Source: Leptolyngbya sp. FACHB-261 (GTDB lineage Bacteria > Cyanobacteriota > Cyanobacteriia > FACHB-261). Taken from it: 64,000 nucleotides of DNA. Shown here piece after piece: positions 27,644 through 34,412 of the stretch; position 1 is the stretch's first letter, and every line of letters begins with the position of its first letter. The notes below the pieces were generated by a model. That model was not told where the DNA came from, did no database searches, and saw only the letters and a list, made by a program, of their open reading frames with translations. The position numbers and the translations under genes were made by a program. The stretch lies in contig NZ_JACJPL010000028.1 in the NCBI RefSeq assembly GCF_014696065.1, positions 62,001 through 126,000 of the forward strand, given 5' to 3'.

Positions 27644-28924
27644 TTATTGATAGGGCTTAAGAGGCAGTTCAACCTGGAAGGTTGAGCCTTTGCCGACTGT
27701 ACTCGTCACATGAATTTGTCCACCATGTGCTTGAACAATCTGGCGAACAATTGCTAACCCTAACCCAAAGCCACCGCTCCCCTGCGAACGCTCGGTGTCT
27801 ACCTGGTAGAAGCGATTGAAGATATAGGGTAAGTCTGCTTCTGGAATCCCGATTCCCGTGTCGACCACCTGAATAATTGCCCATCCAGGCTGGGCAATTA
27901 GTCGCAACAGTACAGTTCCGCTGCCAGAAGTGTATTTACAGGCGTTGTCGAGTAAGTTTTCGACTACTTGCCTTAGCAAATCAGGATCAGCCCACAACTC
28001 AACTTGTCGCTCGGGTTGTTCGTAATTCAGTTTGATATTTTGAGATTTTGCTATTGTGGCAAACTGGCTTGCTAAATTTTTCAGTAGAGCGTTGAGACTG
28101 AGTAATTTTAGCGATTCAGGTGCAAGCCGTCCCTGATGGCGAGCTAACAAGAGCAAATTGTTAACCAAAACTCCCATAGACTTAGCGCTATCCACAATAT
28201 TTCCCAAGGGGTGGTGGTAGCGCGAGTCATCGGCTGCGATGAATAAACCAAGCTGGGCATTGGTGAGGATAGCAGAGAGGGGCGATCGCAATTCATGGGA
28301 GGCGTCTGCTGTAAACTGTTGAAGCTGTTGATAAGCTTGTCGAATAGGCTGCATTGCAAGTCCACTGAGAAACCAACCTGTGAGTCCAATCAGGCCCAGC
28401 GTGATCGGAACAGCAAAAGTTAGCACAAGCTGAAACTGAGTGAGATTGTTTTGGGTTTCGATCAGTGGCGTCGCAACCTGAAGATAGCCAAGCACACCAG
28501 TTCTGCCTGCAACAGGTAATGTAGCTTGGCGCAGCCAGATCCCTGTTCCCAAAACTGGATCTGTTGATTGAATCGTGAGATAACCAAAGGAGGTATTTAA
28601 CTGCTCTGGAGGAGAAGCCCCAAAAAAACGGACGAGCCGCCCTTCTACGTTATACCAGCGCACATAGATCAGATCTTCTGCAAGAGGATGAGATCCGCTA
28701 CCCAACAAGGGAACATTACTCAGATCGACCTGGCTCTGGTTTTGGCGAACCTTATAGTTTACACTGGCGGCCATTACTCTAGTTTTGTCATAGAGCAGTC
28801 GGTCAATCCCCTTTAATTTGTCTTGCGCCTCAATCTGATAAATCACCCCAGCAAACAGCACAAGGATGCTTCCCATTGAGAGGGTGAACCAACGAGCCAG
28901 ATTGCGACGACTTTGGTTGAACAC
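27644..28924 (-). CDS. rppB: Sensor histidine kinase, RppB-like
   Basis: This 426-residue kinase has two membrane helices (about 12-28 and 185-205) around a periplasmic sensor. The HisKA core is FTADASHELRSPLSAIL (His). The HATPase boxes are NLLDNACKYTSG, VDTGIGIPEADLPYIF and GGFGLGLAIVRQIV. It is read from GTG with the paired regulator ending 15 bp before. The sequence style fits cyanobacterial RppB (NrsS-type). In Synechocystis that pair responds to redox or nickel; I infer only the family here. Confidence 0.85.
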   Translation of the reverse strand: MFNQSRRNLARWFTLSMGSILVLFAGVIYQIEAQDKLKGIDRLLYDKTRVMAASVNYKVRQNQSQVDLSNVPLLGSGSHPLAEDLIYVRWYNVEGRLVRFFGASPPEQLNTSFGYLTIQSTDPVLGTGIWLRQATLPVAGRTGVLGYLQVATPLIETQNNLTQFQLVLTFAVPITLGLIGLTGWFLSGLAMQPIRQAYQQLQQFTADASHELRSPLSAILTNAQLGLFIAADDSRYHHPLGNIVDSAKSMGVLVNNLLLLARHQGRLAPESLKLLSLNALLKNLASQFATIAKSQNIKLNYEQPERQVELWADPDLLRQVVENLLDNACKYTSGSGTVLLRLIAQPGWAIIQVVDTGIGIPEADLPYIFNRFYQVDTERSQGSGGFGLGLAIVRQIVQAHGGQIHVTSTVGKGSTFQVELPLKPYQ

Positions 28925-28939
28925 GTCTTGCCTTCACAA

Positions 28940-29635
28940 TCACTGTTTTTTGGGGCATTGCTGTTCGGGAGAAATTAGGCGGTAGCCCATACCATAAATG
29001 CTCTCAATCCAATTAGCAGCCCCTACAGCCTGCAAGCGTTGGCGAAGTTTGCGAACCAGAACGGTGATTGCATTGCTTTCTGGTTCAGTTCCCCATTCCC
29101 ACACAGCTTGTTCTATCTGATTGCGCGTCAAAACCTGTCGAGGATGGCGCATGAGATACTCCAACAACTGGAACTCTCGACTGGAAAGGGAAACCACCGT
29201 ACCCTGCCGTTCTATGGTGAGAGCGTCAAGGTGAAGGTGCAGATCCTCAAGCCGGAGCGTGTCACCTTGCCAAAGGGGCGAGCGCCGGCTTAATGCCCGC
29301 ACTCGTGCCATGAATTCAACCAAGTCAATAGGTTTCACCAGATAGTCATCTGCACCCGCATCTAGCCCACTCACTTTTTCAGGTGTGGTATCTCTTGCTG
29401 TGATCATCAAGACCGGAGCTGTTTTTCCCGCTGATCTATACTGACGGCACAGATTTATGCCGCTGACTCGCGGCAACATCCAGTCCAAAATCAACAAGTC
29501 GTATTCTTTTTCCGATAAAAGCCATTGAGCTGTCTCTCCATCTTTTACACCATCTACGCTATGCCCCGCCTGAGACAGCACCGTTTGCAGCGGCATCAGT
29601 TGTTTGGGATCATCTTCTACCAGCAAAACTCTCAT
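28940..29635 (-). CDS. rppA: OmpR family response regulator, RppA-like
   Basis: This 231-residue regulator opens with MRVLLVEDDPKQLMPLQTVL. The receiver has the acidic pair, phospho-Asp in LLILDWMLPRVSG and Lys in DYLVKPIDLVEFMARVRAL. A winged-helix DNA-binding domain (REFQLLEYLMRHPRQVLTRN) follows. I placed the start at 29635 because GGAGGTG is upstream at a good distance; an in-frame ATG at 29698 would add 21 residues. It is cotranscribed with the kinase. Confidence 0.88.
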   Translation of the reverse strand: MRVLLVEDDPKQLMPLQTVLSQAGHSVDGVKDGETAQWLLSEKEYDLLILDWMLPRVSGINLCRQYRSAGKTAPVLMITARDTTPEKVSGLDAGADDYLVKPIDLVEFMARVRALSRRSPLWQGDTLRLEDLHLHLDALTIERQGTVVSLSSREFQLLEYLMRHPRQVLTRNQIEQAVWEWGTEPESNAITVLVRKLRQRLQAVGAANWIESIYGMGYRLISPEQQCPKKQ

Positions 29636-29784
29636 ATCTCTGCTCACCTCCTCTATGGTTTGCAGCTTTAGCATTAGAGTTTGAAAAAGCTGGCGCATCT
29701 ACTCTAGGCTGTATTCTGGAATAGAGCAGGCTGTACTAAAGTACAGAGGAGATGGTGGGTTCAGAGCAGATGGAAAAATAGTTA

Positions 29785-30162
29785 ATGATTAAGCGTTGGT
29801 TGCAAGCATCAGGTGCAGAGTTCTGGTTGCCACTGCCATTTGTAGCGATCATGTTTTGGTCTGGCTCCAATTTCATAATGGCCCAAGAATTGAGCAAACC
29901 TCAAATAACAGAGAACAAACTTCAGGCAGATACTCAGTTTGAAGCAACTGTATCTATCAACATATTGCTAATCAATGCGGTTATTAACCGACAGCAAGGA
30001 ACGACTCAGATTGAGGTAGAAACAGCAGAACCTATCTTAAAGCGGCTGGAGTTAGATCTGCCGATGACCAACACAAGCCAGATAGAGGAAGCGATCGCTC
30101 AAGAACTTCACTTATCGCGTCAAGATGTTCGACAGCTAGTTCGCTACGAAGTCATTGAATGA
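29785..30162 (+). CDS. Small exported protein divergent from rppAB
   Basis: This 125-residue protein starts with an apparent signal peptide (LPFVAIMFWSGSNFIMAQ) and continues with a soluble domain rich in Glu and Ile (TQIEVETAEPILKRLELDLP). It is divergent from the RppA start, which often marks a target gene. Size is the same as the rhodopsin transducer ASRT, but the sequence does not match the transducer as I know it. Function is unknown. Confidence 0.55.
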   Translation: MIKRWLQASGAEFWLPLPFVAIMFWSGSNFIMAQELSKPQITENKLQADTQFEATVSINILLINAVINRQQGTTQIEVETAEPILKRLELDLPMTNTSQIEEAIAQELHLSRQDVRQLVRYEVIE

Positions 30163-30187: not shown

Positions 30188-30910
30188 CTAATGAGTTACA
30201 CTGTGGCTGGCAGTAGCTGCGTTGGCTTTGGCGCGGCTTAGGCGACGTAGACCATTCAAATCTAGATAGCTAAACCCAACTTTTGAGAAAAAGGGTAAAA
30301 CGCAGAATAGTAACGTTTCAATTGTCTGGTTGACCCAATTCAAACCAGAAGGGCCAATTAACCAGACGATCGGATAGCTAACCCATAGTACTGTAAAGTA
30401 GGTCGAAAGCCTGTTATAAAGCCTAGACAGCTCTACACCTTGCCCACGGGTTTTGGCCCTCAAAGGTATCCAAATTCCCCAAAGAATGACTAGAAACGCA
30501 ACGACACCACAGGTGTACCACAGAAACCTGGCTTCACCATTTCCAGATAAATCCGCGATTAATCCTGTTACGACAACTATCGTCTGAGTTGCCATTAAGG
30601 CAGCGATTAACGTCCAGTCTTTTGCAATAAAATACATTGCCGTCCAAGACAATGACAGCAATAGCAAAGGGGTTGTGACGATCCAGTCAATGTAACGAGC
30701 GTAATGGGTTATTTGACCTGCAATTTCAACTTTACCCTGACCAAGTGCCATCGCCATGTAAGCCAGCCCTGACCAGATGGGAATGAAGGTAGCAACTAAA
30801 TACTCGGACTTGGGAACGCCACGTGGATTGTTGCCGAGTGACATGAAATAAAACGCGCCAATCATCATTGAAATTACGTAAATCCAATGAAATGCGGTCT
30901 GTAAGTCCAT
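30188..30910 (-). CDS. Microbial rhodopsin, Anabaena sensory rhodopsin (ASR) type
   Basis: This 240-residue protein has seven helices. It aligns position for position with Anabaena sensory rhodopsin from memory: counter-ion Asp75 in RYIDWIVTTP, Ser86 (replacing the proton donor), Glu36, Pro206 in LPFFSKVGFS in place of the second counter-ion, and the retinal Schiff-base Lys210. So this is a photochromic sensory opsin, not an outward pump of the bacteriorhodopsin type. ACGGAG precedes ATG. The soluble transducer gene (ASRT) is not next to it. A divergent P-type ATPase gene starts 176 bp away across a palindrome. Confidence 0.93.
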   Translation of the reverse strand: MDLQTAFHWIYVISMMIGAFYFMSLGNNPRGVPKSEYLVATFIPIWSGLAYMAMALGQGKVEIAGQITHYARYIDWIVTTPLLLLSLSWTAMYFIAKDWTLIAALMATQTIVVVTGLIADLSGNGEARFLWYTCGVVAFLVILWGIWIPLRAKTRGQGVELSRLYNRLSTYFTVLWVSYPIVWLIGPSGLNWVNQTIETLLFCVLPFFSKVGFSYLDLNGLRRLSRAKANAATASHSVTH

Positions 30911-30947
30911 AAGCTATCTCCGTTTCTTCTCAATCTTAAATCATAAA

Positions 30948-30997
30948 TGTGATCCAAAAGTGAGTAGTAGGTTCCTACTACTCACTTTTGGATCACA
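30948..30997. repeat. Perfect 50-bp palindrome between rhodopsin and P-type ATPase
   Basis: Two perfect 24-bp arms (30948-30971 and 30974-30997) flank TT. The ends read TGTGATCC and GGATCACA, and the inner arm holds ACTCACTTTTGGATC. A close variant of that inner piece (ACTCACTTTTGAATC) occurs at 46097 in a MITE-like element. It lies in both gene leaders. Confidence 0.85.
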
Positions 30998-31086
30998 CTC
31001 CTGAGCAACACTATGAGGATAGTTGTAGGCAACATTGGCTTACGGCAGTTGTATTGCTCTTTTGTTATCGAGTGTGGAGAGAGTCA

Positions 31087-33804
31087 ATGACAGCAACAAT
31101 GGATAGCCTAAAATCAGCGGAACACCAATGGCATCACCTCTCCAATGAGCAGGTTGCCCGTTTGCTCAAAACTGATTTGGAGAGTGGTTTATCGTTTACA
31201 GAAGCAGCAGAGCGACATGAACGTTTTGGCCCCAACCAGTTAACAGCTCAGAAAAAAGAGAGTGCCTGGCTACGTTTTTTTCAGCAGTTTAATCAGCCGC
31301 TCCTCTACATTCTACTAGTGGCAGGACTGATTACAGCCTTTCTGCGAGAGTGGATTGATTCAGGGGTGATTTTTGGTGTAACGCTGCTCAATGCCACGAT
31401 TGGCTTTATTCAAGAGTCAAAGGCCGAGGATGCAATTGCCGCTTTGGCCAAATCTGTTACGACTGAAGCAACGATTCTCCGCACTGGCCAGAAGCAAGTT
31501 GTTCCATCTAGTGAACTGGTGCCTGGCGATCTTGTCTTGCTATCTTCTGGGGATAAGGTTCCTGCGGATCTACGGCTCATTGAGACCCGCGACTTACAGG
31601 TCGATGAGTCAGCATTAACAGGAGAATCTGTCCCAGTAGAGAAAGAACTTCAGCTACTAGCAGCGGACACGCCCCTAGCAGAACGCACAAATATGGCGTT
31701 CACCGGCAGTCTAGTGACGTTTGGCCAAGGACGCGGACTGGTAGTGGGGATTGGTGAGATGACTGAGACCGGACACCTTTCCCAACTCATGCAGCAAAGC
31801 ACCACACTGGAAACCCCACTGACTCGCAAAATTGACAGATTTGGCAAAACCTTGCTGTATGTCATTCTGGGCTTGGCTAGCTTCACATTTGTCGTAGGTA
31901 TTGCCCAAGGGCTCTCTTGGGTTGAGGTGTTCAAAGCCGCTGTGGCTCTGGCAGTCAGTGCCATTCCTGAAGGTTTGCCCGCAATTTTAACGGTCACGTT
32001 AGCGACCGGGGTTTCCCGGATGGCGAAGCGGCATGCCATTATTCGAAAACTACCAGCAATTGAGACGTTGGGTAGCACAACCGTCATTTGTTCTGACAAA
32101 ACTGGAACCTTAACTGAGAATCAAATGACGGTTCAAGAAATCGAGGCAGGTGGAAAGCGTTACCGGGTTAGCGGTGGAGGGTATGCACCAAATGGAGAAA
32201 TTTCCCTTAACGGGCACTCCGTTGACCTAGAGAACAGCCCCGCCTTATATGAATGCCTTCAAGCAGGACTGTTGTGCAACGATTCCCATCTAGACGTGCA
32301 AGACGGAAACTGGGCTGTAGTGGGCAGCCCAACGGAAGGGGCATTGGTTGCAGTTGCGCACAAAGCTGGGCTAAACACCGACCAACTAAATCAGGTACTT
32401 TCTCGGCTCGATACTTTGCCGTTTGAGTCACAGTTTCAATACATGGCAACGTTGCATGACAATCACCCAGAACGATTGATTTATGTCAAAGGCTCAATTG
32501 AGGCAATTCTCAAGCGGTGTCGTCAGATGCTGAGTGAGGATGCAAAGGTGATTGCGATAAACCCAGAGCATATTGAACAAGCCGTGGATAAGATGGCAAA
32601 AAAAGGGCTTCGAGTTTTGGCACTTGCTAAGAAAGTTGTGCCCGCTTCTCAAGCCTCAATTAAGCATGCTGACCTTGCTCAAGGCTTGGTTTTTCTGGGG
32701 ATACAGGGCATGATCGACCCGCCTCGCCCCGAAGCAATTCAAGCAATTCGCTCCTGCTGGTCTGCCGGAATTCAAATCAAGATGATCACGGGTGACCATG
32801 CTAAAACAGCCGCGGCCATCGCCGGACAGATGGGGCTGAATCAAACTGGAGAGGCTCCCGTTCTAACAGGTCAAGAACTTGCCCAACTGAATGAGGAGGA
32901 ACTAGCTAATGCCGTTGAGCAGAGTAGTGTGTTTGCGCGTGTAGCGCCAGAGCAAAAGCTTCATATTGTCAAAGCACTTCAATCCAGGGGCGAGATTGTG
33001 GCAATGACTGGTGATGGAGTCAATGACGCTCCTGCCTTGAAGCAAGCTGACATTGGTGTAGCAATGGGCATAACAGGTACCGAAGTCACGAAAGAAGCGG
33101 CAGATATGATTCTGACGAATGATAACTTCGCCTCCATTGAGGCAGCAGTTGAGGAAGGACGCACAGTTTACAAGAATTTGCTGCGGGCGATTGCCTTCAT
33201 CTTGCCGGTGAATGTTGGAGAGTCCATGACTATCTTGATCGCTGTACTTTTGGCAACTCCGCTGCCAATTTTACCAGTGCAAATTCTCTGGCTGAATATG
33301 GTCAGTTCAGTTGCCTTAAGCGTACCTTTGGCGTTTGAGCCCCCCTCTCCTGACATCCTGCGACAGCCTCCTCGTCCTGTTAATGAGCCGCTTCTATCTC
33401 GTAGGTTAATTACCCGGATTTTAGCAGTTTCATTGTTTAACTGGCTTGTGATTTTTGGAAGTTTTGAATGGATTATTCGCACCACAGGAAACGAAGCTTT
33501 AGCTCGGACAGTGGCAGTTCAAGCATTGGTTGCCGCAGAAGCTTTTTACCTGCTAGGCATTAGCCGCTTTGTCCCAGCAATCACTGCTAAGTTGCGCGGC
33601 AAAGATGAAGCATTCGGCTATGCGGTGGTGTTTGGGATTGGAGGGGTCTTCATTCTCCAATTCCTGTTCAGCCAATGGAGCATTATGAATCAGCTATTTG
33701 CCACCGAAGCTTTAAGCATGGCTCAAGGTTTAATTTGTATCGGAGCTGGGTTACCTATGATTGCCTTGGCAGCTTTGCTGAAGCGTTTTGCACCTCTGAA
33801 CTAG
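31087..33804 (+). CDS. P2-type cation-transporting ATPase
   Basis: This 905-residue P-type ATPase has, in order, the N-terminal cation ATPase domain, TGES (in ALTGESVPVEK), the M4 motif PEGLP, the phosphorylation motif DKTGTLT and TGDGVNDAPALKQADIG. There is no CPC metal motif, so it is P2-like, related to Ca/Na/K pumps. In M6, LWLNMVSSVALSVPLAFEP keeps the Asn, but the Asp used by Ca pumps is replaced, so the ion is uncertain. I placed the start at ATG 31087 with GGAGAGAG before it. It is divergent from the rhodopsin gene. Confidence 0.9.
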   Translation: MTATMDSLKSAEHQWHHLSNEQVARLLKTDLESGLSFTEAAERHERFGPNQLTAQKKESAWLRFFQQFNQPLLYILLVAGLITAFLREWIDSGVIFGVTLLNATIGFIQESKAEDAIAALAKSVTTEATILRTGQKQVVPSSELVPGDLVLLSSGDKVPADLRLIETRDLQVDESALTGESVPVEKELQLLAADTPLAERTNMAFTGSLVTFGQGRGLVVGIGEMTETGHLSQLMQQSTTLETPLTRKIDRFGKTLLYVILGLASFTFVVGIAQGLSWVEVFKAAVALAVSAIPEGLPAILTVTLATGVSRMAKRHAIIRKLPAIETLGSTTVICSDKTGTLTENQMTVQEIEAGGKRYRVSGGGYAPNGEISLNGHSVDLENSPALYECLQAGLLCNDSHLDVQDGNWAVVGSPTEGALVAVAHKAGLNTDQLNQVLSRLDTLPFESQFQYMATLHDNHPERLIYVKGSIEAILKRCRQMLSEDAKVIAINPEHIEQAVDKMAKKGLRVLALAKKVVPASQASIKHADLAQGLVFLGIQGMIDPPRPEAIQAIRSCWSAGIQIKMITGDHAKTAAAIAGQMGLNQTGEAPVLTGQELAQLNEEELANAVEQSSVFARVAPEQKLHIVKALQSRGEIVAMTGDGVNDAPALKQADIGVAMGITGTEVTKEAADMILTNDNFASIEAAVEEGRTVYKNLLRAIAFILPVNVGESMTILIAVLLATPLPILPVQILWLNMVSSVALSVPLAFEPPSPDILRQPPRPVNEPLLSRRLITRILAVSLFNWLVIFGSFEWIIRTTGNEALARTVAVQALVAAEAFYLLGISRFVPAITAKLRGKDEAFGYAVVFGIGGVFILQFLFSQWSIMNQLFATEALSMAQGLICIGAGLPMIALAALLKRFAPLN

Positions 33805-33884
33805 ATTGCTTCTGTAAGACAGCTTTGCAGATCGTATTTACACATTGCTCATCAAACGTCAGCATTAAGATTTCAATTCTTCTT

Positions 33885-34412
33885 ATGACTTCTCAAAAAC
33901 TCAAACACGCGGTCGGAATATTGCCTAACCGTCGGGATGCAGAACAGGCACTGATTGAGTTAAGGAATGAGAGTTTTCCTATGCACAAGATTTCAATGAT
34001 TACCAAAACTTCTGATAGTGAAGTTTTGCATGATCAAGGTGTGCAGCAACACTCATTGACAAGAGCAGAAGGGGCAAAAGCAGGTGCGGTTGCAGGAAGT
34101 ACAGGTGCAGGATTGCTAACTTTAGTGGTTGGATGCAGTATATTGCTGGTTCCCGGAATTGGTCCTGCGTTAGCTATAGAAACTCTTCTGGCAACATTCT
34201 TAGGAAGTGGAACTGCAGCTGCAGTCGGTGGTTTATATGGTGCATTTCAAGGTTGGTTGGTACCAAAGGAACAAGCAAGAGTTTACAACGATAGATTTGA
34301 TCAAGGAGATTGTTTAGTAATCATAGAAGCAATAGAGGATGAGGTCCAGATGGCCGCATCGATTCTTAGCCGCTGGGGAATTCAGATGTGGCGTGTCTAT
34401 GATTCTGTTTGA
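33885..34412 (+). CDS. Low-temperature-induced/general stress (Gsp17M-like) protein
   Basis: This 175-residue protein begins HAVGILPNRRDAEQALIEL, then has a Gly/Ala-rich pair of membrane-associated helices (AGAVAGSTGAGLLTLVVG and GSGTAAAVGGLYGAFQGW), and ends with YNDRFDQGDCLVIIEAIED. This is the pattern of the cyanobacterial low-temperature-induced or general stress protein family. The start is ATG 33885, 80 bp past the ATPase stop, so it may be cotranscribed. Known members respond to cold and osmotic stress, which would fit an ion-ATPase neighbour. Confidence 0.75.
   Translation: MTSQKLKHAVGILPNRRDAEQALIELRNESFPMHKISMITKTSDSEVLHDQGVQQHSLTRAEGAKAGAVAGSTGAGLLTLVVGCSILLVPGIGPALAIETLLATFLGSGTAAAVGGLYGAFQGWLVPKEQARVYNDRFDQGDCLVIIEAIEDEVQMAASILSRWGIQMWRVYDSV

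Follow-up and report, generated by a model that had tools for sequence, protein, structure and literature searches.

Results

The window, by which we mean the whole 64,000-nucleotide stretch of Leptolyngbya sp. FACHB-261 DNA that was analysed, contains an opsin gene flanked on one side by a small exported-type protein and the rppA-rppB pair and on the other by a divergently transcribed P2-type cation ATPase and a glycine-rich stress-like protein (Table 1). A preliminary description of this DNA had named the small exported protein and the divergent ATPase as the neighbours of the opsin, and the Pfam and open reading frame evidence agrees. It had also given the interval as 30188-31086, of which the start is right, but the end takes in intergenic DNA up to the start of the ATPase gene. 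That gene likely begins with the ATG at 31087; a TTG at 30988 was rejected as the start because it lies inside the palindrome and box of the intergenic region.

Table 1. Coordinates of genes and promoter features around the opsin gene (window positions)
Feature	Position	Strand	Details
RppB-like sensor histidine kinase	27644..28924	-	Best model NF041735, 304 bits
OmpR-family response regulator RppA, proposed activator of the boxes	28940..29698	-	NCBIfam NF041734, 254.2 bits
Small membrane-anchored exported-type protein	29785..30162	+	Divergent from RppA; third gene by rppAB
ASR-type (xenorhodopsin-clade) opsin, short C-terminal tail	30188..30910	-	240 aa; ATG at 30910
-10 element TAAGAT, opsin promoter	30933..30938	-	+25..+30 from box start, in phase
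Direct-repeat box TCACTTTTGGATCACATTT, points at opsin	30945..30963	-	PWM score 32.5
Perfect inverted repeat, 24-bp arms, 2-bp centre (50 bp)	30948..30997	.	Two back-to-back activator-type boxes
Direct-repeat box TCACTTTTGGATCACACT, points at ATPase	30982..30999	+	PWM score 26.5
-10-like element AACACT, ATPase promoter	31007..31012	+	In phase, A at +26, T at +30
P2-type cation ATPase	31087..33804	+	905 aa; Pfam PF00122/PF00690/PF00689 (E1-E2_ATPase, Cation_ATPase_N, _C)
General-stress-like glycine-rich protein	33675..34412	+	Homologous part from about 33885

The opsin is matched by Pfam PF01036 (Bac_rhodopsin; E 8e-64), and its closest solved structure is Anabaena sensory rhodopsin (ASR; 2m3g/1xio; E about 1e-111), to which it aligns without gaps over residues 1-228 with 71.5% identity in that stretch. 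Glu36, Asp75, Ser86, Pro206, Lys210 and Asp217 (ASR numbering) are identical in the two proteins; the preliminary description had called the opsin ASR-type and had named Asp75, Ser86, Glu36, Pro206 and Lys210, all of which the alignment confirms. Both its sequence clade and the presence of Asp75, Pro206, Lys210, Glu36 and Asp217 place the protein in the ASR/xenorhodopsin clade, within which the window opsin and its relatives L010, L011, L012, L027 and L013 form one clade (100/97). Neither the opsin nor homologues of it were found in viral contigs. The same genome encodes two carotenoid oxygenase homologues, which could be the source of retinal, and a second opsin (L002; G000:C31:478017-478664) with Thr at 75 and Asp at 86 and 206 (TSD motif), which from these residues is of the halorhodopsin type, that is, the cyanobacterial chloride-pump type. 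Opsins from Hymenobacter (Bacteroidota; L053-L058 and L063) are 52-56% identical to the window opsin and have short tails and no box; these were likely transferred without the cyanobacterial regulon.

After residue 218, the window opsin has a tail of only 22 aa (NGLRRLSRAKANAATASHSVTH), where most other cyanobacterial ASRs carry an Arg-rich tail of about 35-60 aa. Judged from these sequences, the window clade has lost the Arg-rich C-terminal tail. Short-tailed opsins lie within about 5 kb of an ATPase gene in 6 of 8 cases, compared with 4 of 34 for long-tailed opsins, a comparison that uses manually assigned near and far labels and non-independent rows. Three genomes (G401, G388 and G408) carry both a short-tailed opsin and a long-tailed paralogue; at L026/L027, G388:C34:477098 and G408:C132:1047, the short-tailed opsin is beside or near the ATPase gene and the long-tailed ASR is elsewhere in the genome. 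Strain FACHB-63 has two copies (L013 and L014, 986-1708) of a sister opsin with Glu217.

The preliminary description had treated the opsin as one without its transducer. A search of the whole 6.95-Mb, 97.7%-complete assembly for ASRT (PF07100) indeed found none. The idea that this absence is peculiar does not survive: ASRT was found in only 10 of 54 genomes carrying ASR-type opsins and is absent from 44, and an ASR without ASRT, with a two-component system in the opsin neighbourhood, was already published for Cyanothece PCC 7424 (Ugalde et al. 2011; PMC3198991), so that an ASR without its transducer is unremarkable in itself. The ASRT gene adjoins the opsin in seven loci; three genomes (L070, L076 and L077) have an ASRT that does not.

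The nearest NCBIfam model to the ATPase is the PMR1-type Ca ATPase, but the protein falls below the P2A Ca2+ cut-offs TIGR01522 (694.1 against 798.3) and TIGR01116 (592.4 against 703.4). Its M6 segment reads NMVSS, and the family as a whole shows NMV(S/N/G)S where N..TD is usual, with S, N or G at that place across the aligned orthologues. In SERCA, the M6 aspartate binds Ca2+ at this site. The ion specificity of the family may, on these residues, differ from that of Ca2+ pumps. Homologues of the glycine-rich stress-like protein adjoin the ATPase gene in L010, L011, L012 and L027, and members of this family carry the box in other islands.

Comparison of relatives defines this box as a direct repeat with an 11-bp period and the consensus TCACTTTYNRRTCACATTT. 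The spacing is specific: the 62 opsin upstream regions contain 26 instances of GTGA-N7-GTGA, whereas spacings of 3-6 and 8-12 give 0-3 each. A position weight matrix (PWM) trained on the opsin upstream regions matched 113 times in about 1.0 Mb of opsin loci, mostly in promoter regions; with the threshold unchanged, a Markov shuffle gave 2 matches. Among 178 distinct flanked boxes from relatives, a -10 element follows with an A at +26 in 97% and a T at +30 in 93%; because this distance is fixed, the box occupies the -35 position, and the tandem half-sites about 11 bp apart complete the layout of an OmpR/PhoB-type activated promoter. Upstream sense-strand boxes were found at 30 of 50 cyanobacterial ASR loci, with an in-phase -10 element in 25 of the 30, and shuffles gave none. 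About 40% of ASR loci have no sense-strand box at threshold; some of these opsins (e.g., L020, L031 and L036) sit downstream in possible operons. Our literature search for the box motif found nothing, nor did the literature searched yield a description of the regulon, although one may exist elsewhere. We also considered OrrA, which regulates osmotic genes, in connection with the box, but the OrrA paper gives no binding motif.

Between the opsin and ATPase genes, two such boxes stand back to back and together form the 50-bp palindrome. Both are in phase with a -10 element, that of the ATPase being read off the window sequence against the -10 profile of the 178 flanked boxes. The palindrome is a single copy in the 6.95-Mb genome, which rules it out as a repeat element, and its position between two diverging starts, together with its resolution into two boxes, rules it out as a terminator. 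The box facing the opsin is the only exact match to its sequence in the genome, and the strong boxes of this genome are limited to these two. The pair is kept in L010, L011, L012 and L027, with a degenerate distal box in L012. Since each gene has its own copy of one activator-type box, the opsin and ATPase look like co-regulated outputs. The preliminary description had suggested that the opsin may control ion pumping, which is not what this arrangement indicates; from the promoter layout, the two genes are most probably co-regulated, with the opsin not in control of the ATPase.

When up to one mismatch is allowed, a genome-wide scan detects the box in 38 of 42 ASR genomes; the reversed pattern, used as a control, gave counts near zero. 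Several large genomes have their sites concentrated in a single 25-110 kb region, which also contains an RppA orthologue; in 15 genomes, 94 of 142 box sites among the matches listed lie within 50 kb of such an orthologue, where 3.4 would be expected. These islands encode proteins whose family names were partly assigned by eye from sequence, and the box accompanies the ATPase in 11 of the 14 genomes having it there, a small secreted protein in 11 of 14, a holin-like membrane protein in 10 of 12, an MgtE-like Mg transporter in 7 of 12 and the opsin in 7 of 9; antiporters and PRC-barrel proteins are further box-bearing genes. As the island regions were picked around RppA, these counts do not test RppA itself, whereas the genome-wide box counts, the linkage test and the genomes without ASR are independent of that choice.

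In ASR-less genomes, the box is found before the ATPase gene, an amino-acid permease cluster and others, and four such genomes (G042, G125, G129 and G308) have rppA-rppB within 10 kb of a box. The box and island serve an ATPase without an ASR opsin in L200, L202, L203 and L206, the first of which (in G125) has the window-type gene set minus the opsin. In a sample of the phylum, the exact box occurs in 3 of 5 ASR genomes versus 11 of 381 others. Picocyanobacterial boxes (L212 and L213), which come without island genes, look like chance matches.

The gene order stress protein, ATPase, opsin, small exported protein, rppA, rppB is kept in L010, L011, L012 and L027, giving five genomes with full synteny; outside the window clade, the order and orientation of the opsin and ATPase genes vary. 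Linkage within 20 kb was counted with genomes treated as independent, which overstates significance: opsin and RppA are linked in 15 of 42 genomes (0.51 expected; 10 of 37 without the window clade), opsin and ATPase in 14 of 38 (0.33 expected; 9 of 33, against 0.27, without the window clade) and ATPase and RppA in 15 of 38 (0.54 expected; 10 of 33 without the window clade). The proximity of opsin and ATPase, which the preliminary description had pointed to in this one genome, is thus a real conserved link. The variation in gene order argues against a single inherited block, and the abundance of ATPases does not explain the linkage, because there are only 1-3 orthologues per genome at E <= 1e-200. 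In Aliterella atlantica (L035:1594-2637), only two separate ATPase pieces, either a decaying gene or an assembly gap, adjoin the opsin, and the box is still upstream.

The response regulator narrowly passes the curated cut-off of the RppA model (254.2 against 250), while its partner fails that of the RppB model (304 against 400) and can be called RppB-like only. The RppA gene lies 1.2 kb from the opsin, and the recognition helix of RppA is nearly invariant across islands. Homologues of the small exported-type protein are found beside rppA-rppB, and divergent from rppA, in 18 of 18 islands examined. This protein has no Pfam or NCBIfam match; a predicted model of moderate confidence shows a transmembrane helix and an alpha/beta domain, and a fold search for the protein gave no match at E <= 0.001. 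Its Nostocales homologues have a duplicated domain (about 200 aa). The rppAB genes themselves carry a box in 0 of 18 islands. About six islands (L141, L147, L163, L165, L170 and L171) encode a second OmpR-family regulator, which is a possible alternative regulator of the boxes.

Discussion

Our strongest result is the regulon and its promoter architecture. The sequence comparisons give good support to a clustered ion/osmotic regulon across cyanobacteria that is marked by the box and to which most ASR-type opsins belong, and the promoter type common to opsin and ATPase places this opsin family in an ion/osmotic stress programme. The biological role of ASR has stayed open, and the ASRT account fits a minority of genomes. 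The conserved box and its fixed -10 element, which opsin and ATPase have in common, indicate the occasion on which the opsin is produced and its companions. A little-understood cyanobacterial two-component system also gains a predicted regulon, precise enough in sequence for any genome to be searched.

We would propose the following scheme. Redox, metal-ion, salt or osmotic stress would lead to phosphorylated RppA, with RppB and the small membrane-anchored protein as partners. Phosphorylated RppA would then bind both boxes, standing in for a -35 element, and the opsin and ATPase would be induced together. In an opsin without an Arg-rich tail and without ASRT, the Schiff base proton would move upon photoactivation to the cytoplasmic side (Asp217), which is the weakest step of the scheme. 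The opsin would then not signal through a transducer but, driven by light, would carry protons inward or leak them, and so help to restore membrane potential or pH during cation transport by the ATPase. Taken as a whole (an ASRT-free, short-tailed opsin, paired activator-type promoters with the ATPase, RppA, and inward or leaky proton transport), we consider this model reasonably likely.

The assignment of RppA as activator of the boxes rests on linkage, family type and promoter layout, and we think it probable with some confidence. An OmpR-family dimer suits the box because two equal half-sites sit one helical turn apart. In Synechocystis, RppA receives phosphoryl groups from the redox- and Na+-responsive Hik2 (PMC4751278) and its partner RppB is a nickel sensor (PMC9321951). 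As Anabaena asr is also a FurA/FurB target (PMC12282138), other inputs to asr exist. Control of the box by another OmpR-family regulator, or by an alternative sigma factor, would account for the lack of a box before rppAB and for the second OmpR-family regulator in some islands; we regard it as unlikely, though not negligibly so. RppA recurs near box clusters in genomes with and without ASR and is close to the opsin in the window, while the two equal half-sites 11 bp apart and the sigma70-like -10 element fit a tandem response-regulator dimer and not a sigma -35 element.

The linkage of opsin and ATPase may instead be passive, both genes being co-inherited cargo of a plastic island with the box as its generic promoter. 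The many unrelated stress genes of the islands and their varying gene order are in keeping with this reading, which we nevertheless find improbable: the box is not generic in the window's genome, whose strong boxes are confined to the pair separating opsin and ATPase, each box of this pair has its -10 element in phase, and the pairing is kept in L010, L011, L012 and L027. It is also conceivable that the opsin is an upstream light sensor that, in place of an ASRT output, directly contacts and so controls either the ATPase or RppB. Adjacency often marks interaction in other sensory rhodopsins, and in five genomes the opsin adjoins the ATPase 1.2 kb from rppA; moreover, both the tail and an adjacent ASRT are missing in the window clade. 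However, the opsin has no extra cytoplasmic domain for such contact, its order and orientation relative to the ATPase change outside the clade, and the shared promoter element is what parallel outputs would have. Neither rppAB nor the ATPase needs the opsin, since the rppAB-ATPase island exists without it (L200), and sensing by direct contact appears distinctly improbable. Even less probable, in our judgement, is direct repression or activation of transcription by the opsin as a photochromic sensor. Photo-induced gene regulation has been reported for ASR (Irieda et al. 2012, as cited in PMC4005646), with which the window opsin shares 71% identity and identical photochemical residues, but the Arg-rich tail, which is probably what binds nucleic acid, is missing from the clade, and G401, G388 and G408 also carry long-tailed paralogues.

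For the co-regulated opsin of our preferred model, the direction of proton movement can be approached by analogy. When the C terminus of ASR is truncated, the Schiff base passes its proton to the cytoplasmic instead of the extracellular side (Sineshchekov et al., as cited in PMC3267196), the D217E replacement makes ASR transport protons inward, and PoXeR, an inward H+ pump, is also without the Arg-rich tail (PMC5118547). Tail loss, together with the same replacement in the sister genes (L013/L014), makes proton transfer towards the cytoplasm likely. The window opsin has Asp217 and Glu36, the counterparts of the cytoplasmic acceptor network of PoXeR (Asp216/Glu35). To our knowledge, however, wild-type ASR does not pump protons although it too has Asp217, so net inward transport by the window opsin is speculative, a possibility that we rate as less likely than not. 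As a broader generalization, cyanobacterial ASR-type opsins as a class would be effector proteins of an ion/osmotic regulon under RppA control, and the short-tailed subclade would be a natural, light-driven inward proton transporter paired with an unusual P2 cation ATPase and not an ASRT-dependent colour sensor; we put this forward as speculation that is unlikely to hold as worded.

Several known systems resemble parts of this locus. The opsin is closest to ASR of Nostoc PCC 7120 (alr3165), a member of the xenorhodopsin clade, in identity and in functional residues, but has Glu in place of Asp198, adjoins a P-type ATPase and rppAB and belongs to a genome without ASRT. The Anabaena ASR-ASRT system thus differs both in its partner and in the long Arg-rich C-terminal tail, which the 240-aa window opsin does not have. 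PoXeR of Parvularcula oceani belongs to the same clade, its Glu35, Asp74 and Asp216 have equivalents in the window opsin and neither protein has an Arg-rich tail; PoXeR carries a DTL motif where the window opsin, known here from its sequence, has DTS. The ATPase shares with PMR1/SERCA-type P2A ATPases the overall architecture, PEGLP in M4 and N..E in M5, but scores below the family cut-offs and has an M6 without the Ca2+-binding aspartate of SERCA. Pho boxes consist of 7-bp half-sites in direct repeat with an 11-bp period right before a sigma70 -10 element. The promoters described here are alike in all these respects, but their half-sites read TCACTTT/TCACATT and, in the window clade, two boxes stand back to back between divergent genes. 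Finally, the locus resembles the RppA/RppB system of Synechocystis (sll0797/sll0798, NrsRS) in that the window regulator passes the RppA model. It differs in that the window kinase is below the RppB cut-off and the gene set is no nickel operon but an ion/osmotic island with an opsin and an ATPase.
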